Assembly: GCA_028692415.1 (NCBI GenBank)
Contig: JAQUXM010000019.1
Span: forward strand, 1 to 33,930
Reading direction: 5' to 3'
Length of the DNA: 33,930 nt
Source: Syntrophomonadaceae bacterium
GTDB taxonomy: Bacteria > Bacillota > Syntrophomonadia > Syntrophomonadales > Syntrophomonadaceae
Below are positions 499 to 24,246 of this stretch, one piece after another. The notes below the pieces were generated by a model, which saw nothing but the letters and a program-made list of their open reading frames with translations, was not told where the DNA came from and searched no databases. Every line of letters starts with the position of its first letter. The stretch's first letter is position 1. The translations under genes were made by a program, and so were the position numbers.

Positions 499-3400
499 TC
501 AGGCCGCCTGGTCTTCTTCTTGCCCAGTTTCCGCAAGTCCTATTTGTTCAAGAACGCCGCCATCCCACGTCATGGTGCTGGTGCAATTATCCACGGTGGA
601 ATTATAGGCATAGCCCGCAATGCTGCCTATGCTTCCTTCGTTTCCGCCGCCGGTAATGCTGCCCGAGGCGCTGCAATCTATAATTCTATACAAAGTTGGT
701 TCCGGATTATCCTCTGAATACAACTCTTGATAGAAGCTTCCACCAACCAGCCCACCAACGCGGTTTGTGCTGTTCGACACGGTTATGTTAATGTCAGACG
801 AGCATCTCGTTATCTGTGTAAGGGTATCTATATCATACGTTCCCGTATAGCCTATAAGACCTCCGATCATGGTATTGTTTGCACCTGAAGCCGTAATGGA
901 AACGGTGGCACGGCAGTCTGCAACACTTTCTCCCTCCGGGCAGGCTTGGCCGGCCAGGCCGCCCAGGCCAAAGCAATCATCACCTGTCGCCGTCACCGTT
1001 CCTTCTACAGTACAAGAGTCAATCAGCGATTCTCCTTCCTGACCGCCAATTAAAACGCCTGCACAGCAGCCGCCATTGCCCAATACCTCAATATTAGCCA
1101 CAGCGTCACAGTTGATCAAATCTCCAAATCCGCCGCCGGTAATGCCGCCTATCGCCTGCCAACCTCGCACTGTATTACTGCCGATTAAGCTTACGTTCTC
1201 CAGGGTGCATTCCGAAGCTTGATACCCGACCACGCCGCCGCTCAGGAAACACCCAGTTACTTCTAGATTCTCTACCGTCAAATCATATATGTCTCCGATT
1301 ACGCATCCGAACAAACCTGTCGCCATACCCTCAGGCTTATTAATTGTCACATTGGAGATGGTGTGCCCGTTGCCGTTAAAAGTTCCGGTAAAAGCCACTG
1401 CCGGGTTGGGCGTCTCCGCATCTTCCGGCGCGCTGGAGGCCGGCTGGAAGGTACCAATCGGTTCCCAATTCTCATATCCGGAAAGATCGATATCCGCCGT
1501 CAGGATAAAGTGCTTGTTCAGGCAGTAGCGTACCCCGTCAAGCTGTTCTGCTGTTGCGATCTGATAAGGATCGGACTCCGTGCCGCTGCCGCCCGTGAAG
1601 GCGGTGCTTGCCTCTATGGTAAACAAATTATCAGCATCTTCCCAGCGTACTTTTTCAACTACTTGAGCCCGGAGATCTTGAAATGCCTTTTTTTCTTCAG
1701 AGCTTGCAGTATTGTTTTTTACCTTGGTTTTTATGGCGAAAAAGTTATCCGGAAATACCTTGGAAAGTGCCTTAACGGTTAATATCGTGCCACTCTCGCA
1801 ATCAGTGATCTGATAACTATAATAATCTTCATTATGAGGCCGTTCTTCCAGCTGGTATCTGCCGTCACCCAGTATGGCTTGCAGTGCCACCTCAGTGCCT
1901 TCCGAGTTTGGTCCGACTACAGTAAATCGGCTGCGATCAGCAACTGCGCCCGGGCTTAAGACCTCAAGCGCTTCCTGCATAGCCCGATAAGCAAAGGAAC
2001 CGCAGACACAGACCTTGCCCCCTTCCTCCAAAGCCACATCCGAGTACTGGACCACATAGGTCTGCCCTGCTTCCTGCACTTCAATGTCTCCCATGATCGC
2101 ATCATTGGCACGAGATGCAATATATAGGGCTATGTTGGCATGTGGCAATAGCGCTCTTTGTCCGGCTTCGGGGTACAGATAAGTTATACCATCCAGGGCG
2201 TTAGGTATTTTAGTGCTGGTATAAACGCCTTCACTCAACATAACCGGCATTACTATAACTGTGCAGTCAGGATTATTATTTATTACCTCTTCGACCACGG
2301 TTCTTATGCCGGGTGTTCCTGCCCCTACAAATCCGTAGCATACCTGCTTGAATCCGTGTATTTGCTGCAATTTATCCCCTAATGATGCCATCTTTTCTTT
2401 CCAGACAGCCAGATTGTCTGGATCAGATGTGCCATGAGCAACCAGAACCACTATTTCTTCCGCAGCATTCTGGCTAAGGCTTTCCACTCTTTCATCGAGA
2501 ATTTCAGCAATCAGTAAATGATCATCTAAAGCGGAAGTCAATTCCACCGCAGCAGTCATTTGGATTCTTGCCAAACCATCTTCTAGTGCGGCTGCATCGT
2601 CTATTGAACCGGGTAAACCGAGCATGTATTTTATTTCTTCCATGTGGCTGGAAGCAGAACAAATGAAAATCGGAACCGCCACAATGCGTTTTACTCCCTT
2701 TTCTTCCAGTGCCTGCACGGCCATGGGAATGCTTTCTGTTTCCACATCCAAAAACCCTAATTCCACTGGATAAGGCACTTCAACCTCGGCTACTGATTCG
2801 CGTACACTCTGGTTCCATTCTTCACCTGACCCGTGGGCTACAACTAATATTCCGATATCAGCCTGTTCTTCATTAGCATTATCGATACCAAACAGGCATT
2901 CGAACATAGCTACCTTATCAGCCGTACTGAATTCATCGCTCATCTGAAACATGGTCGGCATCCAACTGCCGAGCGTTACGCTGTCCGGTTTGTAAGTGCC
3001 CAGCGCATCCTTGCTTGCGGCATAGTAGAAATGGACGTGAGCAGGCATGGTGGCCTCATCCATACCCTCGTCAAAGTGGGGTTTGAGCATCGCAATATAG
3101 TTCAGCACACCCGCATCGTCATCCGCCTTGAATACATAGGTTGTCTCCCCGGCCAACATTCCCAGGTTGTTGTTGCTCTCTACAAAGGTGTAAGGGTGAG
3201 ACTCAATGACATTCCCGTCATTGTCACAAAAACTGATGGTCTTGTAATCATTAGCGTATTTCATCTGGTAGATCTGCGTACCGTTATTGGCCGGAGTCGA
3301 TGCCATATTTGCAAACATGGCCTTCAGAGATTCTCCGTCCGTGACCTGCACGCCAAACATTCCCGCCATCATTTGCGCCATCTCAGAGGAGGCTGCGGCA

Positions 3401-5940
3401 TTCCACAGGTCGCTTAGAGCATCGTCGTTTACATAATTGACCAGCGATTCAAAGCTGCCGCTACCGCGATTTGCCCAAGCGGAAAGATTCTCAAAGCCTT
3501 CCGGCTGATCAGCACTTTCGTACATTCTCTCGGTCGTTCCGATCTCGGCTGTACCCTGTACGCCGTCGATCAGGACGTCGGATGTGCAGTCTGCGATGGT
3601 GCAGTTCATCGCGCGTCCGGCAATCGTACCCGGAGTGACCGCTCCGATTATTTGACCCTCGGCGTTGCAATTGTTGATGGCAAAGACTGTTTCCATTCCC
3701 ATGAAGTAAAGTCCCGTGCCTACCAGCCCGCCGATATGCGTGGCGTTGGCCGTGTTCATCACCAATGCGGCCGAACAATTTTCTATTACTGCCGGATTTT
3801 CCGGGTCCCCGGTACCCGCATACCCGCATAAGCCGCCGACCGCGTGAGCCGAGTTAGGCGCGGTTACGGTCACGTCCGCCGTACAGCCCGTGATACTTTC
3901 GAGATATATGAGACAACCGCCTATACCGCCAAGACCAACAGGCTCGTTGCCCGCGGCGATTATCTCGCCCTTGGCGGAGCAATTCTCAATGCTGCCGCTA
4001 AAACCACCACCACCTATGATCAGACCGCCGCATTCGGCCACATCGCACTGGATGATAGGACCGCTGGAAAAGTCATTGTCACCCAGCACGTTAATCGTTA
4101 CATCTTCAACCGTGCAGTTCTTAACGTCTCCATATCCGCTCCCGCCGAGAATGCCGCCGGTGCAATTGACGCCGGAGATCGTATTTTTACCTTTAAGCGT
4201 CAGATTTTCCACCGATCCGAAGTTATAGCCGATGATACCTGCCGTTGCCATGTAGCCGATAACCGAGGCATTTTCCACAGTCAGGTTTTTAATCACAGCA
4301 CCGGAGGATGCCACACCGAACAAACCAACACCGACAAGGTCCTGGTGGCTTGCGGTCAGGTTGGAGACGCTGTGGCCGTTGCCGTCAAATGTGCCAGAAA
4401 AGGCTAGATCGCTAAGACCACCATTTTCGAGAGCCTCATCAAAGGTTCCGATGGGCGTCCAGTTGGTGCAGCCAGAAATATCTATGTCCGCCGTCAGGAT
4501 AAAGTGCTTGTCCAGATAGTTGCGCACCCGGTCGAGCTGTGCCGCCGTAGCGATTTGGTACGGGGAGGACACAGTACCGTTGCCTCCCGCAAAGGTTGAA
4601 CTGGAGGATCCTCCTCCTCCTCCGCCGGAACTCGTTCCACTGCTGGCCGAAGGAGTGGTGGCAGCAGGTTTATCGATGATCGTAGCCGCCACATTCGTCG
4701 TAGCCGGCGCGTTGCCGTTTATCGAAACACCGTTGGCATTGATCTGCGCCTTGGTAATTGTTCCCTGGTTACTTACGCTAATCTTCGCATTGGCGGTCAG
4801 CGTCTCCACTCTGCCGGACACCGTGATTTTTGTGTCCGCCGCGGCCTCCGCCACATTAAGCGTGCTGACAACGCTGTCCTTATCCACATTTAGGACCGCA
4901 TTTCTGGCGGTTACATCCACCTGTCCGACCTGAGCGTCAACGGCTTTGATTCCTACATCAGCGGTAACGGTGATGCTTGCAAAGGATCCAGTCAGAATAA
5001 TATCGTCCGTGCCTTTATCCACCAAGACCGCTTCCACGACGGCGCCTTCCGAGCTAACAATGCGAATCGACCCGCCATCCGTCTTTTCCATAATAAGATG
5101 CGATATTTGACCGCCCTTAATGTGAATGGAATCGGAACCTCCGCCGCGAACCAGGGTGTTACCTGAAACCGTGACGTTGTTCATGGTTATATCGCCATTT
5201 CCGACACCCTCGGCAATGATCAGATCCCCTGAAATTTTCGTGTCTTTAAGCACCGCGCCCGGTGTATTGACAATCGCTGTACCAGATATATTTCCTGTGT
5301 ATTCCTTGTTTTCATTATATAATTGCTTGACGGAATTATTGAGAATGGTGACAACCTCGGCCCGGGTAATGCCGGCTTTCGGTTTGAATTGGCCATTTGA
5401 GCCCTGCACATAGCCGGCACCGGCCATAGCGTTTATATAGCCGGAAGCCCATGGAGAAATCTTCGCGGCATCGAAAAACGCTGTACTGCCTGCCGCTTTT
5501 TCCCTTAGTCCCAGTGCCCGCCCCAGCATAACGACGGCTTCCTCGCGGGTAATATTGTCAGCCGGGCGCACCGCATTGCCGTCACCACTGATGACCCCGG
5601 CGGCGTTGGCTTTCAAGATGGCATCCGTATAAAAGGCCTGGCCCAAATCGGAAAAGCCATTCTTCGCTTTCGTTTGATAATGCATGACCTTGTCAATGAT
5701 GACCGCTATTTCTCCCCTGGTAATGGGCTCGTCCGGGCGGAATGCGCCGTCCGCTCCGCATACGATTCCCTGGCCGCTCCATTTTTCGATGGCCGTTTGC
5801 CCCCAGTGCCCCTGCACATCGGAAAAGGTTGCATACGCAGCGCCCGGGAACAATGAAACAAGCATGGCCACTGCCAGCAGCAGGCTGAAGAATTTCCTTA
5901 ATGTCAGCTGCTTGGGATTGCTTAAGTTTTTCTTTAGCAC
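499..5940 (-). CDS. Giant SLH surface protein with GLUG, ZinT-like, twin CbiX/CbiK-like chelatase and FmdE-like domains
   Basis: Secreted, probably S-layer-anchored protein of 1813 residues. It has a signal peptide ending near AAYA, three SLH repeats (about 38-205), a beta-rich region (210-430) and a Gly/Ser linker (about 445). GLUG repeats follow (450-800). A ZinT/YodA-like domain (about 805-1020) has His residues in LKPHFDEG and PAHVHFYYA. Two sirohydrochlorin-chelatase-like domains begin at ILVVAHGSG (about 1028) and VVLVAHGTSD (about 1160). The first keeps a second His (SASSHMEEI); in the second this place reads EGVYTSTK. An FmdE-like domain follows (about 1287-1440, KVCVCGSFAYRAMQ), then a second GLUG block to the C-terminus. 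The start chosen is GTG at 5940, because AGGAGG sits 8 bases before it; a TTG six bases earlier would be only 2 bases from that site. SLH, GLUG and chelatase calls are firm; ZinT and FmdE are family-pattern calls. Metal capture or insertion at the cell surface is inference. Confidence 0.88.
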   Translation of the reverse strand: MLKKNLSNPKQLTLRKFFSLLLAVAMLVSLFPGAAYATFSDVQGHWGQTAIEKWSGQGIVCGADGAFRPDEPITRGEIAVIIDKVMHYQTKAKNGFSDLGQAFYTDAILKANAAGVISGDGNAVRPADNITREEAVVMLGRALGLREKAAGSTAFFDAAKISPWASGYINAMAGAGYVQGSNGQFKPKAGITRAEVVTILNNSVKQLYNENKEYTGNISGTAIVNTPGAVLKDTKISGDLIIAEGVGNGDITMNNVTVSGNTLVRGGGSDSIHIKGGQISHLIMEKTDGGSIRIVSSEGAVVEAVLVDKGTDDIILTGSFASITVTADVGIKAVDAQVGQVDVTARNAVLNVDKDSVVSTLNVAEAAADTKITVSGRVETLTANAKISVSNQGTITKAQINANGVSINGNAPATTNVAATIIDKPAATTPSASSGTSSGGGGGGSSSSTFAGGNGTVSSPYQIATAAQLDRVRNYLDKHFILTADIDISGCTNWTPIGTFDEALENGGLSDLAFSGTFDGNGHSVSNLTASHQDLVGVGLFGVASSGAVIKNLTVENASVIGYMATAGIIGYNFGSVENLTLKGKNTISGVNCTGGILGGSGYGDVKNCTVEDVTINVLGDNDFSSGPIIQCDVAECGGLIIGGGGFSGSIENCSAKGEIIAAGNEPVGLGGIGGCLIYLESITGCTADVTVTAPNSAHAVGGLCGYAGTGDPENPAVIENCSAALVMNTANATHIGGLVGTGLYFMGMETVFAINNCNAEGQIIGAVTPGTIAGRAMNCTIADCTSDVLIDGVQGTAEIGTTERMYESADQPEGFENLSAWANRGSGSFESLVNYVNDDALSDLWNAAASSEMAQMMAGMFGVQVTDGESLKAMFANMASTPANNGTQIYQMKYANDYKTISFCDNDGNVIESHPYTFVESNNNLGMLAGETTYVFKADDDAGVLNYIAMLKPHFDEGMDEATMPAHVHFYYAASKDALGTYKPDSVTLGSWMPTMFQMSDEFSTADKVAMFECLFGIDNANEEQADIGILVVAHGSGEEWNQSVRESVAEVEVPYPVELGFLDVETESIPMAVQALEEKGVKRIVAVPIFICSASSHMEEIKYMLGLPGSIDDAAALEDGLARIQMTAAVELTSALDDHLLIAEILDERVESLSQNAAEEIVVLVAHGTSDPDNLAVWKEKMASLGDKLQQIHGFKQVCYGFVGAGTPGIRTVVEEVINNNPDCTVIVMPVMLSEGVYTSTKIPNALDGITYLYPEAGQRALLPHANIALYIASRANDAIMGDIEVQEAGQTYVVQYSDVALEEGGKVCVCGSFAYRAMQEALEVLSPGAVADRSRFTVVGPNSEGTEVALQAILGDGRYQLEERPHNEDYYSYQITDCESGTILTVKALSKVFPDNFFAIKTKVKNNTASSEEKKAFQDLRAQVVEKVRWEDADNLFTIEASTAFTGGSGTESDPYQIATAEQLDGVRYCLNKHFILTADIDLSGYENWEPIGTFQPASSAPEDAETPNPAVAFTGTFNGNGHTISNVTINKPEGMATGLFGCVIGDIYDLTVENLEVTGCFLSGGVVGYQASECTLENVSLIGSNTVRGWQAIGGITGGGFGDLINCDAVANIEVLGNGGCCAGVLIGGQEGESLIDSCTVEGTVTATGDDCFGLGGLAGQACPEGESVADCRATVSITASGANNTMIGGLIGYTGTYDIDTLTQITRCSSDINITVSNSTNRVGGLVGGSFYQELYSEDNPEPTLYRIIDCSASGSITGGGNEGSIGSIAGYAYNSTVDNCTSTMTWDGGVLEQIGLAETGQEEDQAA

Positions 5941-6126: not shown

Positions 6127-7188
6127 TTACTGATTACTAAAGCTTTTTCTCTTTACAAGTTCTCCGGGATTCATGCCATACTTTTTTTTGAAAGCCGCGG
6201 CAAAATGGCTGATGTTCCCATAGCCAACCATACCTGCCACCTTACTTACACTTGATTCTCCCTTTTCCAGAAGCAGCAAAGTGGTCTCTAATCTTTTATC
6301 AATAATATAAGCATGTACCGGCATTCCGAAAAGAGCTTTAAACCCTTTGGTAAGCTTTGATTCACTCAAATAGACCATCCGGGACAGGTCGACACAGGAG
6401 GGAGGGTTTGTCATGTTTTGGTCCAATATCTCACGGGCTCTGAAAATGCAGTCCTTGTCTGTCCGCGAAAGTTTTATGCCTGCGTCCTTTATTATCCCTG
6501 TTTGCAGGAGTGCTTCACTTAAATACACAGCCAAAAGTTCCAACAACTTGCCTTCGGTATACATATTCAGCAGGGCATCTTTATAGGGGCAACTCAGCAT
6601 CTGCTGCAAAATAACCTGTACTGAAGGGGTAATAGAATATTTTTTAAAGCAGTCACAGCACGATCCTATTACAGAGCAGTTCACTTCTTTCCCGTATTCC
6701 CATACCATTTCATAAAACCTGTATATGGGGATTCTTATTCTTATGAATTCAAATTCACGATCCGAAGGGTAACAGCTACGCTCAATGCCGTTTCTGCTAT
6801 TGGATATAAAACTTTCACCCTTATTGATTTGCAGTTGTTTGCAGGCATTCTGCCATTCCCATTCCCATTCGATTCCTTCTTTCAAGCAAAAGCATATGTC
6901 GATATTTGAAGCATCCGTTTTTCCTATAACATCCGTATCACGCTTGTAGCACATCCGGAATTCGGAAACGATAATGCCTTGGTGGGTGCTGATCTGTCTG
7001 AAGTAACCACGGCCTATTTCTTCGGGAATTAAAAACTCGTATCTTTGGGGGCTGATTTGAGACATCCTGGAATAAGCATTGCAAATAGACTGATTACCCG
7101 ATAATAGACCGCGTTCATTATCATGTTTGGTTTCCATATCAGATTCGTTTATAATTTTTTGTTTAGAAATTACGCTAATATTTGTCAT
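6127..7188 (-). CDS. AraC-family transcriptional regulator, PchR/YbtA-like
   Basis: DNA-binding regulator of 353 residues. The N-terminal two-thirds is a poorly conserved sensor region. The last 100 residues carry the two AraC helix-turn-helix units: CVDLSRMVYLSESKLTKGF, then the hallmark GYGNISHFAAAFKKKYGMNPGEL. Size and layout match PchR/YbtA-type regulators, which in other bacteria activate siderophore genes when the siderophore is present. The start is set at ATG 7188, because GAGGA lies about eight bases before it; an upstream in-frame start at 7257 would overlap the methyltransferase relic. The gene sits 52 bases behind that relic and probably shares its Fur-boxed promoter at 7783-7811. 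Its targets may be the repeated promoter elements in this window. The family is firm; ligand and targets are inference. Confidence 0.88.
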   Translation of the reverse strand: MTNISVISKQKIINESDMETKHDNERGLLSGNQSICNAYSRMSQISPQRYEFLIPEEIGRGYFRQISTHQGIIVSEFRMCYKRDTDVIGKTDASNIDICFCLKEGIEWEWEWQNACKQLQINKGESFISNSRNGIERSCYPSDREFEFIRIRIPIYRFYEMVWEYGKEVNCSVIGSCCDCFKKYSITPSVQVILQQMLSCPYKDALLNMYTEGKLLELLAVYLSEALLQTGIIKDAGIKLSRTDKDCIFRAREILDQNMTNPPSCVDLSRMVYLSESKLTKGFKALFGMPVHAYIIDKRLETTLLLLEKGESSVSKVAGMVGYGNISHFAAAFKKKYGMNPGELVKRKSFSNQ

Positions 7189-7240
7189 AATATATTCCTC
7201 AAAATATATGGTTCCGTCAGACATGTAAAATCTCTTATTC

Positions 7241-7762
7241 TCACATCTTTCTTGCAATATCTACGTCCATTAGTCCCTTAAACATATTTACGGTTTGTTT
7301 GTATACGCTGGTAAAAACTGCTCTTAAAGCGGCCTCACTGACTTCACCCTGCTTCAGTCCATAATCGCATCCCTTTAATTGATTTGGCAACCACGATACG
7401 ATTATTTCCTTTGGGCCGGTATTTTCATGGGTTATCCCATCTGATATGCACATAAATACGCCTCCCGGGTTTAATGCAGCAAATATTTTCTTGATAATAA
7501 TATCCATCTTCTCTTTGGCAAAATTAAGTGATCCAATCGACATAATGAAGTCATATCCCTCACCTATGTAATCGTTAATATAGTCGCCGCTAATTATCTC
7601 AATCCTATCCTCCAGACCATATTCCTGAATACAGTTTTCAATTGTCTTAGGCATTTGCGGTAAATCAAAAATATTCCCCTTCATTTCAGGATGCTCTTTA
7701 AACAACTGCTATACCCAACAGCAGCCCCACCTCCTAAATCAAGCATTTTTATAAAGGCACCG
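7241..7762 (-). pseudogene. Broken SAM-dependent O-methyltransferase (Methyltransf_2 type), N-terminally deleted and frameshifted
   Basis: The readable part (from about 7705 down) matches the catalytic half of plant/fungal-type O-methyltransferases: HPEMKGNIFDLPQM, ISGDYIND, GYDFIMSIGSLNF, LNPGGVFMC. The SAM-binding motif MLDLGGGAAVGY lies just upstream in another frame (about 7715-7750). In-frame TAG and TGA codons lie between the two pieces, so a one-base shift near 7709 breaks the gene. The usual dimerisation domain of about 150 residues is missing; a Fur-type promoter is found there instead, which suggests a deletion. The gene was probably the first in a unit with the AraC regulator. In siderophore and metallophore clusters such enzymes tailor the product. 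A sequencing error could explain the frameshift but not the missing N-terminus. Confidence 0.75.
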
Positions 7763-7782
7763 ATAAAGGTGCTTTTATTGAT

Positions 7783-7817
7783 ATTATATTGATATTGATA
7801 ATTATTATCAATATCAA
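7783..7817 (-). promoter_or_regulatory. Fur-type promoter within a perfect 29-bp palindrome
   Basis: On the minus strand TTGATA (7811-7806), 17 bases and TATAAT (7788-7783) form a near-consensus sigma-A promoter. It is overlapped by a perfect 29-base palindrome (7789-7817) whose core, TGATAAT-T-ATTATCA (7796-7810), is an exact 7-1-7 Fur box. The promoter points at the methyltransferase relic and the AraC gene. Repression by Fur with iron (or a Fur-family paralogue with another metal) is the expected control. Between 7706 and 8039 nothing else is seen but this promoter, the relic 5' part and a His-rich reading frame. Confidence 0.75.
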
Positions 7818-7839
7818 TTGTAATGACACCACTTTTCAA

Positions 7840-8043
7840 TTGTCAATTAATATTTATTTAAAAGATAGATATCTGAACCACGATCTGGGCCCCGGTAATA
7901 AAAATGCCGAAAATGAATTCCATTTTCATGGACATTTTCACCATCAGGCGCAGGGCATTGAAATGTCTTTCGACGGATCGATGCTTTCGATACCTGCAAT
8001 CAATTTCAAAGACTTAAAATGTCAGTTCCCTGTTAACAGTTAG
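7840..8043 (+). CDS. Short His-rich reading frame, possibly the tail of a lost gene
   Basis: A 67-residue frame (from a TTG) carries a striking histidine cluster, NEFHFHGHFHHQ, then GIEMSFDGSMLSIPAINFKDLKCQFPVNS. The spread of third-codon bases looks coding-like in the last 45 residues, but no ATG with a ribosome site precedes them. The stop overlaps the stop of the convergent Phd-Uma2 gene. I do not recognise the family. It could be the 3' end of a metal-binding protein whose 5' part was lost with that of the neighbouring methyltransferase, or a chance frame. The His cluster beside a Fur box is the only reason to list it. Confidence 0.25.
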   Translation: MSINIYLKDRYLNHDLGPGNKNAENEFHFHGHFHHQAQGIEMSFDGSMLSIPAINFKDLKCQFPVNS

Positions 8044-8774
8044 ATTTCAGCAAATATGTCTGCGAGCGAGATTTCCAGCCCCGCAAAAGCACTTGATTCT
8101 ATGGTCTCTCCCTCCCCCAAGCTTGTTAAACCTTCGATATCTCTTTCCGGGGAAAAGGAGTACTGTAAAATACTCTTGTTTTCGAGATTTACCACCCAGT
8201 ATTCCTTAATGCCGCTTTTCATGTAGAGACTTAATTTAATAGCCATATCCTTGCCTCTATTAGATGGTGACAATACTTCAACCACAAGTGTTGGTATGCC
8301 CTCATATTTATTGGCATCGTTGACCTTATCCAGATCACAGACAACAACAACATCCGGCTGGACGACATTGGGATCTTCTTCAAACTTGGTCGCAAATCCA
8401 AAAAGCCTCACATCCAAAGGCCCGGTTAATGAGCGGCAAGGCTTTCCTTTAAAATAGTTATAAAAATGACCCGCTATTTCGTTAACTACAATTTGATGTT
8501 TAAAACTTGGTGAAGCCAGGAGATAAATCTCTCCATCGATAAGCTCATATCTCTGGTCAGATGAATCGACCAGCTCCATGTATTCTTCATAGCTGATTTT
8601 TTTAGTAGTTTTATAACCTCTGGCTTCTTCGTGAATCAGAAAATGATCAGGTTCATTGTAGCGAATCAGTTTGGCCACGTTTTTTCCGTTTTTAGTAATA
8701 ATGATATCTTCCTTCTCAACCAGGGAAAGATATTTTCCAAAAGCATTCTGCAAATCCGTGGTATTGACATGCAT
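8040..8774 (-). CDS. Phd/YefM antitoxin-like domain fused to Uma2-family (DUF820) nuclease-like domain
   Basis: Protein of 244 residues. Residues 1-45 (MHVNTTDLQNAFGKYLSLVEKE then DIIITKNGKNVAKLI) match the Phd/YefM antitoxin fold, a DNA-binding, toxin-capping domain. Residues 60-240 match Uma2 (DUF820), a PD-(D/E)XK nuclease-like family: YELIDGEIYLLASPSFKHQ, QPDVVVVCD, PTLVVEVLSPSNRGKDMAIKLSLYMKSGIKEYWVVN. The acidic and Lys residues of the fold appear intact (PD, EVLSPS, K before LYMKSG). AAGGAGG precedes the ATG. It stands alone behind a promoter with repeated TAGCTAA elements, consistent with self-repression through the Phd part. No separate toxin gene is adjacent. Uma2 genes are often numerous in one genome and their role is poorly known, so nuclease activity is inferred. 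Confidence 0.85.
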   Translation of the reverse strand: MHVNTTDLQNAFGKYLSLVEKEDIIITKNGKNVAKLIRYNEPDHFLIHEEARGYKTTKKISYEEYMELVDSSDQRYELIDGEIYLLASPSFKHQIVVNEIAGHFYNYFKGKPCRSLTGPLDVRLFGFATKFEEDPNVVQPDVVVVCDLDKVNDANKYEGIPTLVVEVLSPSNRGKDMAIKLSLYMKSGIKEYWVVNLENKSILQYSFSPERDIEGLTSLGEGETIESSAFAGLEISLADIFAEI

Positions 8775-9316: not shown

Positions 9317-11047
9317 CTAATTTTGATATTGGGTCTTTAACATCGATGAAAAAATTCCTGGTTTTTCTTTTAATTCCGAAGGTGTGCCGATTTCGGCGAT
9401 AGCACCGTCTTTAATAACCACAATTTTATCAGCTCCTGAAACTGTTCGCATACGGTGAGCAATAATCAAAACGGTCTTGTTTTGTATAAGCGCGCTGAGT
9501 GCGCTTTGAATTTTAGTCTCATTTTCCGCATCAAGAGATGCGGTAGCCTCGTCAAGCAGGATAATCGGAGCGTCTTTTAGTATTGCTCTGGCAATGGATA
9601 TACGCTGTCTCTCGCCTCCCGATAATCTTTCTCCGTTTTCTCCGATCAAGGTATCGTATCCCAGCGGAAGCTTTTTAACGAACTCATCGCATTGAGCCAG
9701 CTGCGCAGCCTTCATTACTACTTCATCAGATGCGTCTTTCTTGCCCAGACGAATATTTTCCATAACGCTCGAATTAAACAGCGTAACATCCTGAAAAACG
9801 ATTGAAAAATTATTCAGCAGGGTCTCGGGATCAACCCGGGAGATATCCTCTCCGCCCAGGGTAATAACGCCTCTATCTATATCCCAGAAGCGCGCCGACA
9901 GCTTGGCTACCGTGCTTTTTCCTCCGCCTGAAGGGCCAACCAGCGCAGTCACGTCCCCTTGCTTGGCGGTAAAGCTTACATTCTTTAATGTTTGCACACC
10001 CTCTTGATATGAAAAGTCCACGTGATTGAATTCGATATCGTAGTTTTTCGGGCGAAACTCGGTTTTCCCCTCTTGTCTTGGCATTTCATCCATCTCTTTC
10101 ATACGGTCTATCCGTACATTGAGATATATAAGTTCTGCAAAGTTGTTCAAGGTATCAATAATCGGATTATAAATGCGTGCTGTAACTACAAGAAAAACAA
10201 GGTAAGTAAAAATACTTATAGAACCTGTTGACAAAAGATAAGCGCCAAATAATATAACACTTGGCAGTCCCAGATTTAAGATTACATGAGACAGATTGAG
10301 AAACGCGCCTATCAAAAGCTCTCCTTTGATCAAAAACTTTTCGTAATTGTCCAGCTTGGAGTTCAAAGCATCTGAAAAGGCCTCTTCTCTGTTATAGGAT
10401 TTTATTTCATAAGCTGAGTCAAGCTCCTCTTGAATATTGTCTGAAATATCTCTTTTCATATTATAAGTCTTGGCATGCACACTGTTTTGAAACTTTCTCG
10501 ACAGATAAAATACCAGAACTGCGACCGGTACTACCCAAAATACAGCCAGAGACAGCTTCCAGTTGTAAAAAAACATCATTACTCCCATTATCATAAGAGT
10601 CAATACTGATGCATAAATTTGAGGAACTGAATGGGAAAAGAGCAGCTCTATCTGGGTAGTATCTTCCATTATGGTTGAGCTTAAATCAGCAATATCCTTT
10701 TTGCCGAAAAAAGCCAAAGGCAGCTTTCTTAATGTTTCAGCCAGACTGATCCGTCTTCGGGCGCTTTCTTCGTAAATTTTGGTATAGGCCGAGTCGTATT
10801 GAAAATACGCGATAACCAACATCACCAGGAAAAAAGCCGCAGACATAATAACGTAATAGAGAATGCTATTTTCCGGGTTGTTTGAAGGATTTAACAGTAA
10901 ATCCATGTATTCATCTAAAAATTTAAAGCCGAGGACTACCGGAATCATAAAGCTAAGGTCCATTACTACCGTCCAAATAATTGAGCGCAAAAGGTCTTGG
11001 GCGCCTTTTTCAGACATAGCGTATTTATTTTGAAAATATTTAATCAT
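9317..11047 (-). CDS. ABC half-transporter, membrane and ATPase domains fused (YbtQ/IrtB-like)
   Basis: Inner-membrane half-transporter of 576 residues. The first 310 residues hold about six membrane helices. The ATPase domain has Walker A GPSGGGKST, signature LSGGERQRISIARA, Walker B PIILLDEATASLD and the switch IIAHRM. It starts inside the end of the preceding gene (8-base overlap, GGAGG-like site in that gene's last codons), so the two are translationally coupled and very likely form a heterodimer. Pairs of this kind (YbtP-YbtQ, IrtA-IrtB) handle siderophores or related metallophores. Direction of transport cannot be read from sequence. The Fur-type promoter before the pair supports a metal role. 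Confidence 0.9.
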   Translation of the reverse strand: MIKYFQNKYAMSEKGAQDLLRSIIWTVVMDLSFMIPVVLGFKFLDEYMDLLLNPSNNPENSILYYVIMSAAFFLVMLVIAYFQYDSAYTKIYEESARRRISLAETLRKLPLAFFGKKDIADLSSTIMEDTTQIELLFSHSVPQIYASVLTLMIMGVMMFFYNWKLSLAVFWVVPVAVLVFYLSRKFQNSVHAKTYNMKRDISDNIQEELDSAYEIKSYNREEAFSDALNSKLDNYEKFLIKGELLIGAFLNLSHVILNLGLPSVILFGAYLLSTGSISIFTYLVFLVVTARIYNPIIDTLNNFAELIYLNVRIDRMKEMDEMPRQEGKTEFRPKNYDIEFNHVDFSYQEGVQTLKNVSFTAKQGDVTALVGPSGGGKSTVAKLSARFWDIDRGVITLGGEDISRVDPETLLNNFSIVFQDVTLFNSSVMENIRLGKKDASDEVVMKAAQLAQCDEFVKKLPLGYDTLIGENGERLSGGERQRISIARAILKDAPIILLDEATASLDAENETKIQSALSALIQNKTVLIIAHRMRTVSGADKIVVIKDGAIAEIGTPSELKEKPGIFSSMLKTQYQN

Positions 11048-12848
11048 TTTGCCCTCCTTTGTTTACAGTATCTTTAGCGACTATTTTCCAGGCGGCGGAT
11101 TTTTGGTATTCATCCCACATAGCTTTGTATAAGCCGCCTTTATCCAGCAGCTCCGCATGGGTTCCTTCTTCCGCAATTTTCCCATTTTCTATAACCAGGA
11201 TTTTGTCGACATTTTGTACGCTGTTAAGACGGTGCGCAATCATAAGCGTTGTTTTGCCACGACTGAGCTCTTTCAGGGCTTTTTGAATTAAATGCTCATT
11301 TTCAGGATCAGCAAAGGCAGTTGCTTCATCTAAAAGCACGATCGGCGCATTCTTTACAATGGCCCGGGCCAGCGCGATTCTTTGCTGTTCTCCTCCTGAG
11401 AGGTAGGTCCCTTTGGAGCCTATTACCGTATCAATTCCATCCGGAAGGTTGTCTATAATTTCTCTTGACTGCGAAAAATCAATAGCTTTATTTATTTCTT
11501 CTTCTCCGGCGTTTTCTTTGCCAAAGACGATATTCTCTCTTAATGAACCCTTAAACAGCCTGGTATTCTGAAAAACGAAGGAGATATTGTTCATCAGTTC
11601 CTTTTTGGGTATATCCCGGACATTTATTCCTCCGACCAATACTTCGCCTTCATCTGCATCCCAAAAGCGAGCGGCCAGCCGGGCAATTGTCGTTTTTCCC
11701 CCTCCCGAAGCTCCGACCAGGGCGATCGTTTCGCCTTCGTTTAACTTAAAGCTGATTTTATCGATGGCGAGTTTGTCGGTGCCTTCATATGAAAACACTA
11801 CATTCTTAAACTCCAGGCTGTGGTCTTTGATATTCTTTATATTTTCGCTATAGCTCATGCCCGGATAGTCTAAAAGATTATCCAGTCTGTCAATTGCTTG
11901 CTCGGCAATCATAGTATTCTGCTGAAAATACATCGATTTCATTAAAAGCATCGTAAAAATTGGAGATATAAGAAGGTAAAAGATGAAGTCGGCCAGCACC
12001 AGCGGGAGATTTCCTCCTCTGCCGATTAAAAAGATACCCATTGGAATTAAAAAGAAGGCGGCGGCTTGCATAATTGCGCTATAAAATGACATCGGTTTCC
12101 GCCAGAGAACCGTATACGCGTGAACCATCTCTTTATATTTGATTATGCTGTCATAGAATCGTTTAAAAGAAAATATGGATTGACCGAATGTTTTTACAAC
12201 CGGAATGCCGCGGACATACTCCACGGATTCTGAGCTCATTTCCTCCAGAGAATCAAAATACATTTTTTGAAATTTCTGGCCTTCAGTGCTCCTCATGAAA
12301 CTCATGGTTATGAAACCCATAATAATTGGAACCATAGAAGCCAGACCCATTCTCCACTCTATGATAAAAATCAGCGCGATCAGAATAATGGGGGAAACGA
12401 TGCTGCCTGCCATATCCGGAAGCTGGTGGGCTAAAAACGAATGTGTTGTTCCCGCTCCGTCGTTGACAATCTTGCGTATTTTCCCGCTGGCATGCTGATC
12501 AAAAAAACCTAAGGGCATAGATAATATTTTTTTCATACCCACTTTCTGCAAGCCGACCTCGACGCGAAAGGCTGCCAGATGTGAGCTCGTAAGCGCGCCA
12601 AAATATACCACTATTCCTGCTATGGCGCTGGCAAAGGCAAGCCACGCATAGAAACTGACATTTGAAATATCAATCGCTTGCGGAGTTGATAAAATATCAC
12701 GTGTTATATACCATACCAGCACAAAAGGCAAGATGTTAAGAACTGCGGAAATTCCTGACAATACTAATGACAAAGGCAGAAGTACTTTCTTATTGCCCAT
12801 ATAAGGCGTGAATCTTTTTAAAACAAATGTTTTTTTCTCTTTTGGCAT
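11040..12848 (-). CDS. ABC half-transporter, membrane and ATPase domains fused (YbtP/IrtA-like)
   Basis: First gene of the transporter operon, 602 residues, with N-terminal membrane helices (about 20-310) and a C-terminal ATPase. Motifs: Walker A GASGGGKTT, signature LSGGEQQRIALARA, Walker B followed by DEATAFADPENE. The ATAFADPEN D-loop is, from family knowledge, common in the YbtPQ/IrtAB branch rather than in lipid or drug exporters. It lacks the extra N-terminal siderophore-reductase domain of mycobacterial IrtA. GGAGG lies 8 bases before the ATG. Two promoters precede it: a GTTAGT-palindrome promoter (12880-12901) and a Fur-boxed one (13037-13065). The substrate may be a metallophore, or a metal-tetrapyrrole given the chelatase neighbour; this is inference. 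Confidence 0.9.
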   Translation of the reverse strand: MPKEKKTFVLKRFTPYMGNKKVLLPLSLVLSGISAVLNILPFVLVWYITRDILSTPQAIDISNVSFYAWLAFASAIAGIVVYFGALTSSHLAAFRVEVGLQKVGMKKILSMPLGFFDQHASGKIRKIVNDGAGTTHSFLAHQLPDMAGSIVSPIILIALIFIIEWRMGLASMVPIIMGFITMSFMRSTEGQKFQKMYFDSLEEMSSESVEYVRGIPVVKTFGQSIFSFKRFYDSIIKYKEMVHAYTVLWRKPMSFYSAIMQAAAFFLIPMGIFLIGRGGNLPLVLADFIFYLLISPIFTMLLMKSMYFQQNTMIAEQAIDRLDNLLDYPGMSYSENIKNIKDHSLEFKNVVFSYEGTDKLAIDKISFKLNEGETIALVGASGGGKTTIARLAARFWDADEGEVLVGGINVRDIPKKELMNNISFVFQNTRLFKGSLRENIVFGKENAGEEEINKAIDFSQSREIIDNLPDGIDTVIGSKGTYLSGGEQQRIALARAIVKNAPIVLLDEATAFADPENEHLIQKALKELSRGKTTLMIAHRLNSVQNVDKILVIENGKIAEEGTHAELLDKGGLYKAMWDEYQKSAAWKIVAKDTVNKGGQND

Positions 12849-13036: not shown

Positions 13037-13100
13037 ATTATGTTAGTAATGATAATCATTATCAACCCCTTCAAGGCGTTGTAATGCCCCGGCAAGTATT
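13037..13100 (-). promoter_or_regulatory. Distal Fur-type promoter module of the ABC pair
   Basis: On the minus strand TTGATA (13065-13060), 17 bases and CATAAT (13042-13037) form a promoter. A perfect Fur box, TGATAAT-C-ATTATCA (13050-13064), covers the -35 and spacer. Just upstream lie AAGTATT (13094-13100) and AGGCGTT (13074-13080), degenerate versions of the AGGTATT direct repeats seen at 17510-17537. The leader from here to the gene is about 170 bases and passes through the proximal promoter. The gap 12849-13215 holds only these promoters and the hairpin at 13091-13118. Confidence 0.75.
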
Positions 13101-13215: not shown

Positions 13216-16200
13216 TTATGTCTTGCTTGTAAAACTAAACTTTCCTCCCAGGTCATCCAACAGGGAATAAAAGACCGGTACAACAAATAAAGTCAACAGA
13301 GTTGAGGAAATCAGACCGCCGATAATAGCATGCGCCATGGGGGCACGGAATCCTCCCCCTATTTCCAGGTTCAGAGCAACGGGCAGCATCCCCATGATCA
13401 TCGCCAATGTAGTCATCATAATAGGACGAAAGCGAACCAGACCGGCCTCCCTTAAGGCCAGATGTTTTTCTATTCCTTGAGCACGTTGCTGTTTGGTGAA
13501 ATCCACCAGTAATATAGCATTCTTGGTAACCAATCCCATCAGCATGATTATACCGATCATGGCCACCACGGAAATATCGCTTCCGGCCACCAAGAGTCCG
13601 GCGATTGCACCAATAACAGCCATAGGCAGGGCAAGTAAGATAGAAAGCGGGTCTATGTAGCTTTCAAACTGGGCGGCCAGTATAAAGAAGATGAATAGTA
13701 TTCCTAAAATAAGAGCTATTAACAAAGAAGCAAAGCTGTTGGCCATGTCTTCCGACTCCCCACCCATGTCTATCCGATATCCATCGGGAAGATTAATCCC
13801 TTTTATTTTTTCGTTGAAAATTTTATTGAATTCCCCGGAAGAAATTCCATCCAGGTTGGCCGAAATAAATACTTCCCGGCTCTTGTCAAAACGCTGAATC
13901 TCGCTGGAACCCGTGACAAAAACTGCTTTACTGACCTGCCCCAGAGCAACCGGAACCGGATTGGAATCCGTTTCCGGATACTGCCCTAAAAGGTAAACCC
14001 GGTCAAGATCTTTAACATCTCTGCGGTCTTTATCACCCAGACGCAGTCGTATATCCACCCGGTCATTTTCATCGTTGAACTGACTGACGACTGTACCGTT
14101 GAAGAGGGTATTCAGCGTTAATCCCGTTTGCGCGGTACTAATCCCCAGATCGGCTGCCGCCTTTTGGTCTATTTCCACATTAAGTTCCGGTTTTCCCGGC
14201 CGGTAAGAAGAACTAAGATCAACAACCCCGGGTATATCTTCCAATACACGCTCGATTTTTCTTCCATAGACCTGCAGTTCCTGCATATTATCACCCAATA
14301 GCCTGAGTCCAACCGGTTTTCCCTGAGAAGTGCCGGTCTCGGCCAACAGCGATGCCTGTATGCCGGGAATTTTTTGCAGCTCCCGGCGCAGGTCCTTAAT
14401 CACACTTTGCTGATCCCGTTCACGTTCCTGATGAGCACGCAGGTTTACCTGTATTTTTATCTGTGAAGTTGTTACCGTGTTGTATATGCTTTCAACATCC
14501 GGATCTCCCTTTATCAGTTTTTCTATATCCCGGTTTATTTTACCGACTGCCTCCAGGTCAAGTCCGGCATCCAGATCTACGGTAAGATTCATCTGGCCCA
14601 GGTCAGCCGTTGGTAAGAGCGAAGAACCAAGCAGCGGAACCAGCATGATACTGGCGACGAATAAGCCAAAAGCAATAATGAGGGTAAAAGCTCTCCTTTG
14701 CAAGGCCTTTCCCAGCATTCGGGAATACCATTCAGCCAGTGCGTCAAACCTTTCATTAAAGCGTTTAATCCACGTTGCGGGCCAACGCCTGGCTACAAAT
14801 TCTTCGTTGCTGAGATAGCGGGAAGATAAAAGGGGCACCAGGGTAAAAGATACCAATAAGGATACCAGCACACAAACTGCCACCGTAATACCGAACTCTT
14901 TCAAGAATTCTCCAATAAACCCCTCGGCCAGTCCCACCGGCAGAAAGGCGGCAACCAGGGTCATAGTAGTAGCCGTAACCGCCAGTCCGATCTCTGCCGT
15001 TCCTTCCCGGGCTGCCTGCACAGGCGTTTTGCCCATTTTGAGATGCCGGTAAATATTTTCAATAACAACTATGGCATCATCAATTAAAAGTCCTACCGAA
15101 ATCGATAAAGCCAACATGCTCATAGTGTTGAGGGTAAATCCCAGGAGGCGCATGGCAAAAAACGAGGATATAATTGAGGTGGGTATGGCCAGGGCTCCTA
15201 TGGCAGTACTCCTCCAGTTTTTCAGGAACAGGAAAATAACCAGAACAGCCAGTATTCCCCCTTCTACCAGGGTTTTTTCCACCCCGTCCAGATTATTCCT
15301 GATACGTACCGAGTTGTCACGTATTACATTTACTTCAACACCTTCCGGCAGTTCCAGTTTTATTCTTTCTACGGTTTTTTTAACCTGGTCGGCAACTACA
15401 ACTGTATTGCACCCCGATTTCTTTATAATCTCCAGGCCAATAGTCGGTTTTTCCTGATATCTGGCTATGTTTTCCTTATCTTTTATCCCGTCAACCACCT
15501 CGGCAATATCTTCTACATACAATTGTACGCCGTCACGGCGGGCAACCGGGATCTTCCTTAACTCTTTCATCCGGTCAACTTCACCGGTTGTTCTCAATAT
15601 TAACTGTTTTCCTTGCATATTGAGTTTTCCAGCCGGGATATCCAGGTTTTCGCTTTGCAGGCTTTCCGTAATTTCAAATACGGTTAGCTGGTGAGCTGCA
15701 ACTTTATCCAGGTCAAGCTGGATCTGAATTTCTCTTTCCTCTGCGCCATATATTTCAACATCGCCCACCCCGTTGATGGTCTGTAAACGGGGTTTTAAGA
15801 GATCTTCGGCCACTTCGGTCATTTCCCGCAAAGACCGGTCCCCGGTAAGCGCCAGGGTTACCGTCGGTATGGCATTGGGATCAAAGATCTCCACCACCGG
15901 TTCTTCAATATCTTCCGGAAACTCGGAACGCATAGCGGCAATTTTGTCGCGCACATTCAGAGCCGCTTCTTCTACCGGTGTTTCCATGGTGAATTCCACC
16001 CACACCAGCGCAACGCCTTCATTGCAAATAGTATAAATGTGTTTGACCCCCGAGATCTGACCCACTGCTTCTTCAATCTTTTCCCCGACATTGCTTGCTA
16101 CCTGTTCCGGCGAAGAACCCGGCTGCGCCACAGTAACAGAAACATAAGGCAGTTCCATTTTCGGCCAGTCATTGATATTCAGTTCCATATAGCCGACAAT

Positions 16201-16275
16201 ACCCAGAACCAGGAGAGCCAGTATTGCCACGGTTACCAAAACCGGCCTTTTTAAACTCAAATTGCTTAGAAACAT
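13216..16275 (-). CDS. RND-family efflux pump inner-membrane subunit (AcrB/SwrC-like)
   Basis: Proton-driven pump of 1019 residues, normal length for the HAE-type RND family. It has an N-terminal helix (SLKRPVLVTVAILALLVLGIVG), a large outer loop, a central helix group, a second outer loop and a final helix group. The proton-relay residues are present: the Asp pair in GLLIDDAIVVIENIYR and the Lys in MGLVTKNAILLVDF. The start is ATG 16275, five bases after GGAGG; an upstream in-frame GTG at 16287 overlaps that ribosome site. The membrane-fusion partner ends 12 bases upstream, so the two form an operon. No outer-membrane TolC-type gene is present, as is usual in single-membrane bacteria (SwrC of Bacillus). 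Substrate unknown; the Fur module on the operon suggests a role in metal stress or siderophore export. Confidence 0.92.
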   Translation of the reverse strand: MFLSNLSLKRPVLVTVAILALLVLGIVGYMELNINDWPKMELPYVSVTVAQPGSSPEQVASNVGEKIEEAVGQISGVKHIYTICNEGVALVWVEFTMETPVEEAALNVRDKIAAMRSEFPEDIEEPVVEIFDPNAIPTVTLALTGDRSLREMTEVAEDLLKPRLQTINGVGDVEIYGAEEREIQIQLDLDKVAAHQLTVFEITESLQSENLDIPAGKLNMQGKQLILRTTGEVDRMKELRKIPVARRDGVQLYVEDIAEVVDGIKDKENIARYQEKPTIGLEIIKKSGCNTVVVADQVKKTVERIKLELPEGVEVNVIRDNSVRIRNNLDGVEKTLVEGGILAVLVIFLFLKNWRSTAIGALAIPTSIISSFFAMRLLGFTLNTMSMLALSISVGLLIDDAIVVIENIYRHLKMGKTPVQAAREGTAEIGLAVTATTMTLVAAFLPVGLAEGFIGEFLKEFGITVAVCVLVSLLVSFTLVPLLSSRYLSNEEFVARRWPATWIKRFNERFDALAEWYSRMLGKALQRRAFTLIIAFGLFVASIMLVPLLGSSLLPTADLGQMNLTVDLDAGLDLEAVGKINRDIEKLIKGDPDVESIYNTVTTSQIKIQVNLRAHQERERDQQSVIKDLRRELQKIPGIQASLLAETGTSQGKPVGLRLLGDNMQELQVYGRKIERVLEDIPGVVDLSSSYRPGKPELNVEIDQKAAADLGISTAQTGLTLNTLFNGTVVSQFNDENDRVDIRLRLGDKDRRDVKDLDRVYLLGQYPETDSNPVPVALGQVSKAVFVTGSSEIQRFDKSREVFISANLDGISSGEFNKIFNEKIKGINLPDGYRIDMGGESEDMANSFASLLIALILGILFIFFILAAQFESYIDPLSILLALPMAVIGAIAGLLVAGSDISVVAMIGIIMLMGLVTKNAILLVDFTKQQRAQGIEKHLALREAGLVRFRPIMMTTLAMIMGMLPVALNLEIGGGFRAPMAHAIIGGLISSTLLTLFVVPVFYSLLDDLGGKFSFTSKT

Positions 16276-16287
16276 ATAGCCCTCCAC

Positions 16288-17379
16288 TTACCTGCAAATT
16301 TCGATTAAGTCCCCGTCTTTCAGGTTATTAACATTGGAAATAATAATCTGCTGATCTTTTTCCAGCCCGGATGTAACTTCCACCATGTTTTCAAGCATTG
16401 AAGCCGTTTTTACTTCTTGCTGCCTGGCCTTTTGTCCTTCCACAATAAAAACATACTGCCGGCCCGACTGTCCGATTACAGAATTAGCCGGAACCGCCAT
16501 TACTTTACTTGTTACTCCGGTTTTGATTTCTGCAGTCGCAAACATCCCCGGCTTCAACAATGCTTCCTCATTCTTTACCTTGATCTTTACGGCGAAAACC
16601 CGAGCAGACGAATTTCCGACCGGATTAACGGCAGCTACTGTCCCCATAAATTCGTGATTATTCAGGCCGGGGACATTTATCATGGCTTCCTGCCCTTTTT
16701 CCACCCGGGCCACGTCCTTTTGTTTAATATTGGTCACTACATAAACAGAAGATATGTCAACTACTCTCATCAGTTCCGATCCTGGATTCACTATTTCACC
16801 TGTATGAATATTACAATTCGCGACCAGCCCTGCAAAGGGAGCAGTAATTGTGGTGTTGTTTAAAACCTCGCGGGCGCTTGATACTGCAGCATGAGCAGCC
16901 TTCACATCAGCCCGGGCAACTCGCAGGGCAATATCGGTATCATCATATGTGCTTTCAGACACTGCCCCCTGTGCATAAAGTTCCCGGCATCTTTCATAAT
17001 CCAATTCAGATTTATGCAATCCTGCCTCGGCCTTTTCCAATGCTGCTTCAGCAACAGCCAGGGCATTCTGATAATCTATCTGTTGAAGCATTACCAGCGC
17101 CTGTCCCTCATTAACAAATGTGCCGTTCTCAACTATTACACTTTCTGCTTTAGCCGCAATTTTGGCACTGACGGAAGCTTCCTGAAAAGATACAATGTCC
17201 CCGTTTAAGATAATGCCTTCTTCCTTTTCCAGCACTTTGCCTTTCTGAACAACCACCGGCTGCAACTGTTCCGACAAAGCCTCTTTTTCTTCCTTATTAA
17301 AATCAGCCTTTTCTAAAGCCATAGCCACCAATAAGATAAGGAAAATCAGGATAAGCCACCATTTCCACTTGTTCTTCAT
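16288..17379 (-). CDS. RND-associated membrane-fusion protein (HlyD/AcrA family)
   Basis: Adaptor of 363 residues for the RND pump that follows. One N-terminal membrane anchor (WKWWLILIFLILLVAMAL) is followed by a lipoyl-like half (SVSAKIAAKAESVIVENGTF), a coiled-coil hairpin rich in Ala, Glu and Lys (NALAVAEAALEKAEAGLHKSEL, roughly residues 105-165), the second lipoyl half (TITAPFAGLVANCNIHTGEIV) and beta-barrel and membrane-proximal domains. The start is uncertain: ATG 17379 is used here, but an in-frame GTG at 17391 is also possible, with the GAGGAGAGG site nearer to it. First gene of the two-gene operon behind the Fur module at 17474-17537. Confidence 0.9.
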   Translation of the reverse strand: MKNKWKWWLILIFLILLVAMALEKADFNKEEKEALSEQLQPVVVQKGKVLEKEEGIILNGDIVSFQEASVSAKIAAKAESVIVENGTFVNEGQALVMLQQIDYQNALAVAEAALEKAEAGLHKSELDYERCRELYAQGAVSESTYDDTDIALRVARADVKAAHAAVSSAREVLNNTTITAPFAGLVANCNIHTGEIVNPGSELMRVVDISSVYVVTNIKQKDVARVEKGQEAMINVPGLNNHEFMGTVAAVNPVGNSSARVFAVKIKVKNEEALLKPGMFATAEIKTGVTSKVMAVPANSVIGQSGRQYVFIVEGQKARQQEVKTASMLENMVEVTSGLEKDQQIIISNVNNLKDGDLIEICR

Positions 17380-17473
17380 ATTGTTATTCACCTCTCCTCA
17401 AGCACCTCTTTCGCTCTTATGTTTTGATCTCAACTGGCATCATGAGAGTTCAAAACTGCGACAAGTATACTTC

Positions 17474-17537
17474 ATTATTACGGTATTGATTATCATTATC
17501 AACTCAGAGAGGTATTATTATTACCCTGCCAGGTATT
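17474..17537 (-). promoter_or_regulatory. Fur-type promoter module of the pump operon
   Basis: TTGATA (17502-17497, minus strand), 17 bases and AATAAT (17479-17474) form the promoter. The Fur-type box TGATTAT-C-ATTATCA (17487-17501, one mismatch in the palindrome) covers it. Immediately upstream are two exact AGGTATT repeats (17510-17516 and 17531-17537) 21 bases apart, reading AATACCT on the coding strand. Position and spacing fit an AraC-type activator pair next to the -35 box. Confidence 0.75.
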
Positions 17538-19530: not shown

Positions 19531-19635
19531 ATTATATTTTACCTCCCTTAATAAACTTAGTATTTACGGGCTTATTATACATCAAATTATGGGCATAAGT
19601 CCATATGAGGGAAAAGCCGGGAGTCCTTTAAGCCT

Positions 19636-19664
19636 CGGAAGAAAGTACGGAGCAGTTTCTTCCG
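19636..19664. repeat. 9-bp inverted repeat between the ferredoxin and PPOX-like genes
   Basis: CGGAAGAAA (19636-19644) and TTTCTTCCG (19656-19664) are exact complements around an 11-base loop, without a T-run. It lies in the 228-base gap downstream of the ferredoxin gene. It could be a transcript-end structure. Nothing else is recognised in that gap. Confidence 0.4.
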
Positions 19665-19758
19665 CACCGCTGCAACGAGGGCGAGGGATTAGAACCGCCG
19701 CCTGTTTTGTTAATACGAACCCGGCCGTTTAAATAAGCTTGGGCATCTTTTCGCCTCG

Positions 19759-23234: not shown

Positions 23235-23335
23235 AAACATAAATTTACATAATTAAATCGCAAACATTTTAAACAAGCTCTGTAGATAATACTGAGTTTA
23301 AATAATAAATGAAAATGAGGGGAGATGGAGGTTAT

Positions 23336-24226: not shown

Positions 24227-24246
24227 AGTTTGTGAGGAGGTAGAGA

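Follow-up and report, generated by a model that had tools for sequence, protein, structure and literature searches.

An apparently iron-regulated SLH-domain protein with twin CbiX domains as a candidate surface iron de-chelatase of syntrophic bacteria and Methanosarcina

The occurrence of two sirohydrochlorin chelatase (CbiX) domains in a protein apparently built for the cell surface raises the question of what a chelatase might be doing there. The protein is encoded in a stretch of 33,930 nucleotides (hereafter the window; contig JAQUXM010000019.1) from a member of the Syntrophomonadaceae. A sequence-only reading had placed it correctly at positions 499 to 5,940, the strand, absent from that reading, being the minus strand; it had proposed a secreted, S-layer-anchored product in which a ZinT-like metal binder, twin chelatase domains and an FmdE-like domain lie between GLUG blocks and serve in metal capture, or metal exchange with a tetrapyrrole, at the cell surface. 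The gene starts with a GTG codon at 5940, preceded by the ribosome-binding site GAGGAGGAA, and the plus-strand open reading frames inside it were dismissed as shadows of the long minus-strand frame. From the N to the C terminus, the product comprises a signal peptide (residues 1-37, read by eye), three SLH domains, a beta-rich linker, GLUG block 1, the ZinT-like domain, CbiX domains 1 and 2, the FmdE-like domain and GLUG block 2 (Table 1). The SLH, GLUG (E 7.5e-28) and CbiX matches all lie well above the Pfam cut-offs, and GLUG block 1 has counterparts of 71-80% identity in Methanosarcina and Syntrophomonas loci. Anchoring and secretion, as well as the GLUG flanks of the metal domains, were thus borne out, and a protein predicted to be exported and held on the wall through its SLH domains is supported.

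Table 1. Positions of the features discussed, counted from the first letter of the window.
Feature	Positions	Strand	Basis
Surface protein gene	499..5940	minus	1813 aa; ORF and RBS, Pfam, NCBIfam
Three SLH domains (residues 38-205)	5326..5829	minus	PF00395, E 1.7e-29
GLUG block 1 (residues 449-805)	3526..4596	minus	PF07581
ZinT-like domain (residues 806-1022; HxH at H968/H970)	2875..3525	minus	ZinT kinship via intermediates only
CbiX domain 1 (residues 1028-1150; H1036, H1099)	2491..2859	minus	PF01903; PDB CfbA and SirB by sequence; alignment
CbiX domain 2 (residues 1158-1285; H1169, H1267; Tyr1240)	2086..2469	minus	PF01903; fold match; alignment
FmdE-like domain (residues 1286-1444; CxCG motif)	1609..2085	minus	PF02663, E 2.9e-4; alignment with L073 FmdE
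GLUG block 2 (residues 1449-1800)	541..1596	minus	PF07581
AraC-family regulator	6127..7257	minus	PF12833, E 2.9e-18; immediately upstream of surface gene
Decayed Methyltransf_2 gene, 5'-truncated	7241..7705	minus	PF00891; sequence; relatives
Perfect Fur box TGATAATNATTATCA	7796..7810		Upstream of methyltransferase remnant, AraC and surface gene
ABC half-transporter B, YbtQ/TM288-like	9317..11047	minus	85% identical to M. spelaei
ABC half-transporter A	11040..12848	minus	YbtP/IrtA best half-transporter PDB relatives; 88% identical to M. spelaei
Perfect Fur box	13050..13064		Upstream of ABC pair
Fur-like box, 1 mismatch	17487..17501		Upstream of HlyD/RND pair 13216-17391

Within the twin CbiX unit, PF01903 matches two stretches (E 2.2e-22, 79.8 bits against a cut-off of 22) and each copy passes alone, CbiK is matched at E 4.9e-6, and the matches by sequence in the PDB include CfbA and SirB, so that the twin chelatase domains first seen in the bare sequence are solid. 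The chelatase fold was likewise returned by a Foldseek search with an AlphaFold model of the unit, itself of low to modest confidence (pLDDT 57), which matched SirB at E 8e-7 (Foldseek probability 1.00) and the FetB structure 9b86 at rank 15 (E 4.6e-3). Five histidines (H1036, H1099, H1141, H1169 and H1267) are invariant in 12 aligned twin units, the most divergent of which share about 35% identity, and by alignment the first catalytic His is present in both domains. The second lies one residue off the CfbA position in the ungapped alignment of domain 1, and in domain 2 its canonical position is occupied by Tyr1240 (Phe in some relatives), so that catalysis may be changed or lost. The match to the NCBIfam CfbA nickelochelatase model (E 1.7e-23) falls below the equivalog cut-off, at 82.9 bits against 120. 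The twin unit thus seems conserved as if functional, yet would be no copy of a biosynthetic chelatase. A role in cytoplasmic cobalamin, siroheme or F430 synthesis was rejected, the protein being exported and no tetrapyrrole synthesis genes adjoining it; moreover, as a profile search of the window genome (92% complete) found no other CbiX or CbiK match, an ordinary cytoplasmic role in cofactor synthesis is unlikely.

The altered second histidines also fit a protein that does not catalyse at all, a surface trap for metal or tetrapyrrole whose chelatase fold merely binds metal or heme, in the manner of a hemophore, and passes it on. Tyr1240 is reminiscent of the Tyr ligands of heme, the ZinT and FmdE folds bind rather than catalyse, and the modules are multiplied in the 4229-aa orthologue of Methanosarcina acetivorans, as expected for a high-capacity binder. 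The invariance of the five histidines across distant relatives is, however, like that of an active site, and a trap without catalysis is considered rather unlikely.

The FmdE-like domain covers the full PF02663 profile and shares 29% identity over 143 aa with an FmdE protein from a relative (locus L073) that is itself bona fide (E 2.9e-41). The profile score is just below the cut-off (21.3 against 22.9 bits, E 2.9e-4) and the N-terminal HGHxC metal motif of FmdE is absent, with CxCG in its place in every aligned relative, archaeal ones included. At L073 (9574-13279), the bona fide FmdE gene lies in an operon with a FecCD permease, an ABC ATPase and a Peripla_BP_2 protein and is thereby linked to iron/cobalamin-type uptake.

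The ZinT assignment fared less well. The domain is 77-86% identical across four loci and its HxH motif is kept, H968 and H970 being invariant among close orthologues, but the surface protein has no direct Pfam match to PF09223 (ZinT) even at E 10, a PDB search with close orthologues of the domain gave no match, and an hhalign comparison of ZinT with the close-orthologue profile was negative. The sole PF09223 match in the M. acetivorans genome (E 0.05, 15 bits against a cut-off of 27) sits in a diverged second copy of the domain within the orthologous 4229-aa protein. ZinT is reached through intermediates, one of which (L089) matches solely ZinT/YodA structures in the PDB (E 0.07-0.5), and a profile including intermediates aligns the HxH with that of ZinT (hhalign E 0.0026, probability 11%). 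Fold matches of an AlphaFold model of the domain were set aside as meaningless, the model being too poor (pLDDT 47), and a lipocalin-like fold match was not obtained with it. On these alignments the label ZinT-like, as distinct from ZinT, is plausible. A further SLH protein with a ZinT-like domain was seen in a distant relative (L080:784-2274, genome G224).

The metal concerned is indicated by the promoters. The 15-mer TGATAATNATTATCA, the Bacillus-type Fur box, occurs in the window as two perfect copies and one near-perfect copy, against 0.04 expected, and three were reached in none of 100 shuffles. The whole 3-Mb genome holds eight such sites and the reversed control none; those outside the window precede feoB, fur-feoBA (which supplies the genome with a Fur gene) and an Fbp-like ABC transporter, among others, which validates the motif. 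A perfect Fur box also lies before feoA-feoB-surface gene in Syntrophomonas UBA4911, and one with 1-2 mismatches was found at the related locus of Syntrophomonas wolfei subsp. methylbutyratica. The surface gene appears to be iron-regulated, as a putative member of the Fur regulon. Furthermore, the segment with the 7796 box is 82% identical to the promoter of an Fbp-like operon on contig C211, beside a near-identical Uma2 gene, which makes copying of the promoter from one iron operon to another probable. Window positions 7745-8311 (Fur promoter and Uma2 gene, 99%) and 1-267 (93%) recur on C211 around that operon, possibly as duplicated iron cassette flanks or as strain variants. A MITE-like repeat of about 140 bp (19621-19770) has copies of 77-87% identity near several Fur-box loci of the window genome (L103, L105 and L106).

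The ABC half-transporter pair resembles the YbtPQ/IrtAB siderophore importers, and its import direction is predicted from that likeness. The best half-transporter matches of subunit A in the PDB are YbtP (4e-97) and IrtA (3.5e-87), and subunit B is nearer TM288 (288 bits) than YbtQ (266 bits). A 91-92% identical pair in a genome of the same family (G035) has Fbp-like and FecCD transporters as neighbours and a Fur-like box in front, and a 46-49% identical pair in G511 has an AraC gene and a perfect Fur box; no siderophore synthesis genes were found in the window. The Fur-like box at 17487 apparently places the HlyD/RND efflux pair (13216-17391) in the iron regulon too, possibly for siderophore or metal export. 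The decayed Methyltransf_2 gene has lost its 5' part and carries its SAM motif DLGGGAAVGYSS in another frame; it has intact relatives in the vicinity of the surface gene both in M. acetivorans and at locus L009. Elsewhere in the window (23309-28740), a cohesin-domain protein precedes a 1497-aa dockerin/Big_4/DUF5018 protein, and the two may form a cohesin-dockerin pair outside cellulosomes.

When other genomes were searched, related surface proteins were found in Syntrophomonas and Methanosarcina loci. Three family members share the protein at high identity (the window genome, S. wolfei subsp. methylbutyratica and UBA4911), and the ZinT-like part, searched against 399 genomes of the phylum, matched only the window, S. 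wolfei subsp. methylbutyratica and one distant SLH protein, which makes the distribution patchy. Among Methanosarcina, it occurs in M. spelaei, a Euryarchaeota MAG and a single-contig genome of 5,751,492 bp, presumably that of M. acetivorans C2A, with a shorter copy in G142; presence of the cassette in all three of the former led to contamination of the archaeal records being rejected. This cassette of ABC pair, LCM methyltransferase and surface protein is shared by M. acetivorans and M. spelaei and includes FeoB in M. acetivorans, where the genes run FeoB, ABC A, ABC B, LCM methyltransferase and the 4229-aa surface protein. The last contains several CbiX twins, two ZinT-like domains, one FmdE-like domain and repeated GLUG modules, and no SLH domain was found in it by search. 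Its gene (L062:12880-18999 and L063:1-6560, genome G139) is flanked by the FeoB/ABC/LCM genes, and on its other flank lies a NikA-like Opp transporter accompanied by two Methyltransf_2 genes. Other Methanosarcinaceae have shorter, more distant CbiX2-FmdE surface proteins beside LCM methyltransferases, adjoined at two loci by a ZnuA-type/ABC-3 metal transporter (Pfam-tested in one). A large insertion, apparently beta-propeller-like, splits a ZnuA homologue near a CbiX2-FmdE surface protein (L066:12861-14969 and L067:4559-6640).

Between the window and M. spelaei, the ABC pair is 85% identical in DNA over 3.5 kb (88% and 85% in amino acids), and a tree of subunit A places two Methanosarcina copies in a 100/100 group with three bacteria, other Methanosarcinaceae copies standing apart at 55-57%. 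These comparisons show recent gene sharing between syntrophs and Methanosarcina, putatively for metal uptake. In S. wolfei subsp. methylbutyratica the same surface protein is found, but with an ABC pair of only 40% identity; a surface gene that keeps company with an ABC pair, even one from a different lineage, suggests a functional link.

The comparison of loci bears on two further alternatives. Nickel or cobalt might be acquired instead of iron, CbiX and CfbA being cobalt and nickel enzymes and methanogens needing both metals; CfbA is among the closest solved relatives, and the NikA-like transporter lies downstream of the surface gene in M. acetivorans. The perfect Fur boxes held in common with feoB and fur-feoBA, and the position of FeoB next to the surface gene in three loci (M. 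acetivorans, L009 and UBA4911), argue against this, and it is regarded as improbable. The SLH and GLUG architecture and its presence in syntrophic partners would also suit an adhesin for contact between bacterium and methanogen, its old chelatase domains retained as a structural or recognition scaffold; given the Fur boxes, the conserved linkage to metal transporters and the conservation of the histidines, such a role is thought highly improbable.

The best explanation of the whole, which is given about an even chance, is Fur-controlled iron acquisition at the surface, where a class II chelatase would serve to bind an iron tetrapyrrole and probably to remove its metal. Upon iron starvation the surface protein would be made, exported and held on the wall by its SLH domains, and the GLUG scaffold would display the CbiX-CbiX unit together with the FmdE-like and ZinT-like domains as accessory metal-handling parts. 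Outside the cell, the CbiX unit would bind heme, siroheme or a breakdown product as its iron tetrapyrrole and remove or exchange the metal, the FmdE-like and ZinT-like domains would receive or buffer the metal thus freed, and iron would enter via FeoB, or as a complex through the YbtPQ/IrtAB-like ABC pair. Export and anchoring, chelatase homology, Fur boxes and iron-transporter linkage are supported by the sequence predictions; the substrate, the direction of the reaction and the hand-off to FeoB or the ABC pair are what we infer from them. A function in iron acquisition seems highly probable, action of the predicted chelatase domains on a metal tetrapyrrole is evenly balanced, and net removal of iron, i.e., de-chelation, may take place, with a likelihood somewhat under even. 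Being linked to iron transporters is no proof that the chelatase domains contact iron; the neighbours for other metals (the NikA-like Opp transporter in M. acetivorans, ZnuA in others) count against the explanation, as does the fact that Methanosarcina synthesises tetrapyrroles itself. In its fullest form, a multi-domain surface iron de-chelatase feeding FeoB or a siderophore-type ABC pair, from a cassette moving between fatty-acid-oxidising syntrophs and their methanogen partners, the explanation is put forward tentatively. From the original proposal of surface metal capture or tetrapyrrole exchange, the surface location and a metal/tetrapyrrole role have gained support, with iron indicated by the Fur boxes, FeoB and the siderophore-type ABC pair, whereas ZinT is a weak call and the metal motif of FmdE is altered.

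The means by which anaerobes, methanogens above all, gain iron other than free Fe(II) are still in question, and gaps among the uptake routes have been noted (PMC8351635). The surface protein is an apparently iron-regulated candidate and, since M. acetivorans has a copy and is amenable to genetics, one that is testable at once. It suggests a shared way of taking iron from extracellular metal complexes in syntroph and Methanosarcina, would add SLH-anchored bacteria and archaea to the Gram-negatives in which exported class II chelatases occur and, if true, would represent an iron-mining device common to two domains of life.

A literature search found no paper naming both sirohydrochlorin cobaltochelatase and ZinT. 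The claim of the sequence-only reading that no described system has this set holds in that the CbiX2-FmdE-ZinT-like combination displayed on SLH and GLUG parts, set among Fur boxes, an AraC gene and an ABC pair and shared with methanogens, appears undescribed, but surface chelatases are not unprecedented, the closest example being FetB of Porphyromonas gingivalis, the same protein as IhtB. FetB/IhtB is a CbiK-like surface lipoprotein (PMC10913741, PMC13402209) for which release of iron from heme (PMC10913741, PMC6460266) and exchange of the metals of porphyrins (PMC13402209) have been proposed; the view that chelatases are normally cytoplasmic accordingly holds for CbiX, CfbA and SirB but not for such exported class II members. 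Like the present protein, FetB/IhtB (Iht system) is a class II surface chelatase tied to iron/heme uptake transporters, but it is a single-domain lipoprotein from a Gram-negative that has a TonB receptor, whereas here an SLH-anchored CbiX twin is fused to FmdE-like, ZinT-like and GLUG domains, accompanied by an ABC pair and an AraC regulator, and found in archaea too. The periplasmic CbiK of Desulfovibrio vulgaris is a further exported chelatase of class II with a link to heme/iron uptake; it is likewise single-domain and, unlike the surface protein, without anchoring or fusion. The CbiX, CfbA and SirB sirohydrochlorin chelatases share sequence and fold with the twin unit, the arrangement of which is SirB-like, but are biosynthetic enzymes of the cytoplasm, in contrast to a surface protein with its second His altered and a score below the equivalog cut-off. 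In Bacteroides fragilis, heme iron is freed outside the cytoplasm and used in a FeoAB-dependent manner (PMC6460266), and HmuS is a de-chelatase (PMC12583661). The HmuS/BtuS systems of Bacteroides with FeoAB therefore resemble the present one in combining an extracytoplasmic chelatase-family protein with FeoB for heme iron, but belong to the CobN-like class I, unlike CbiX. Finally, YbtPQ/IrtAB are matched by an ABC half-transporter pair of that sequence type, preceded by a Fur box and with an AraC regulator nearby, as YbtA, an AraC regulator, accompanies YbtPQ; in place of siderophore synthesis genes, however, the window has a chelatase surface protein.
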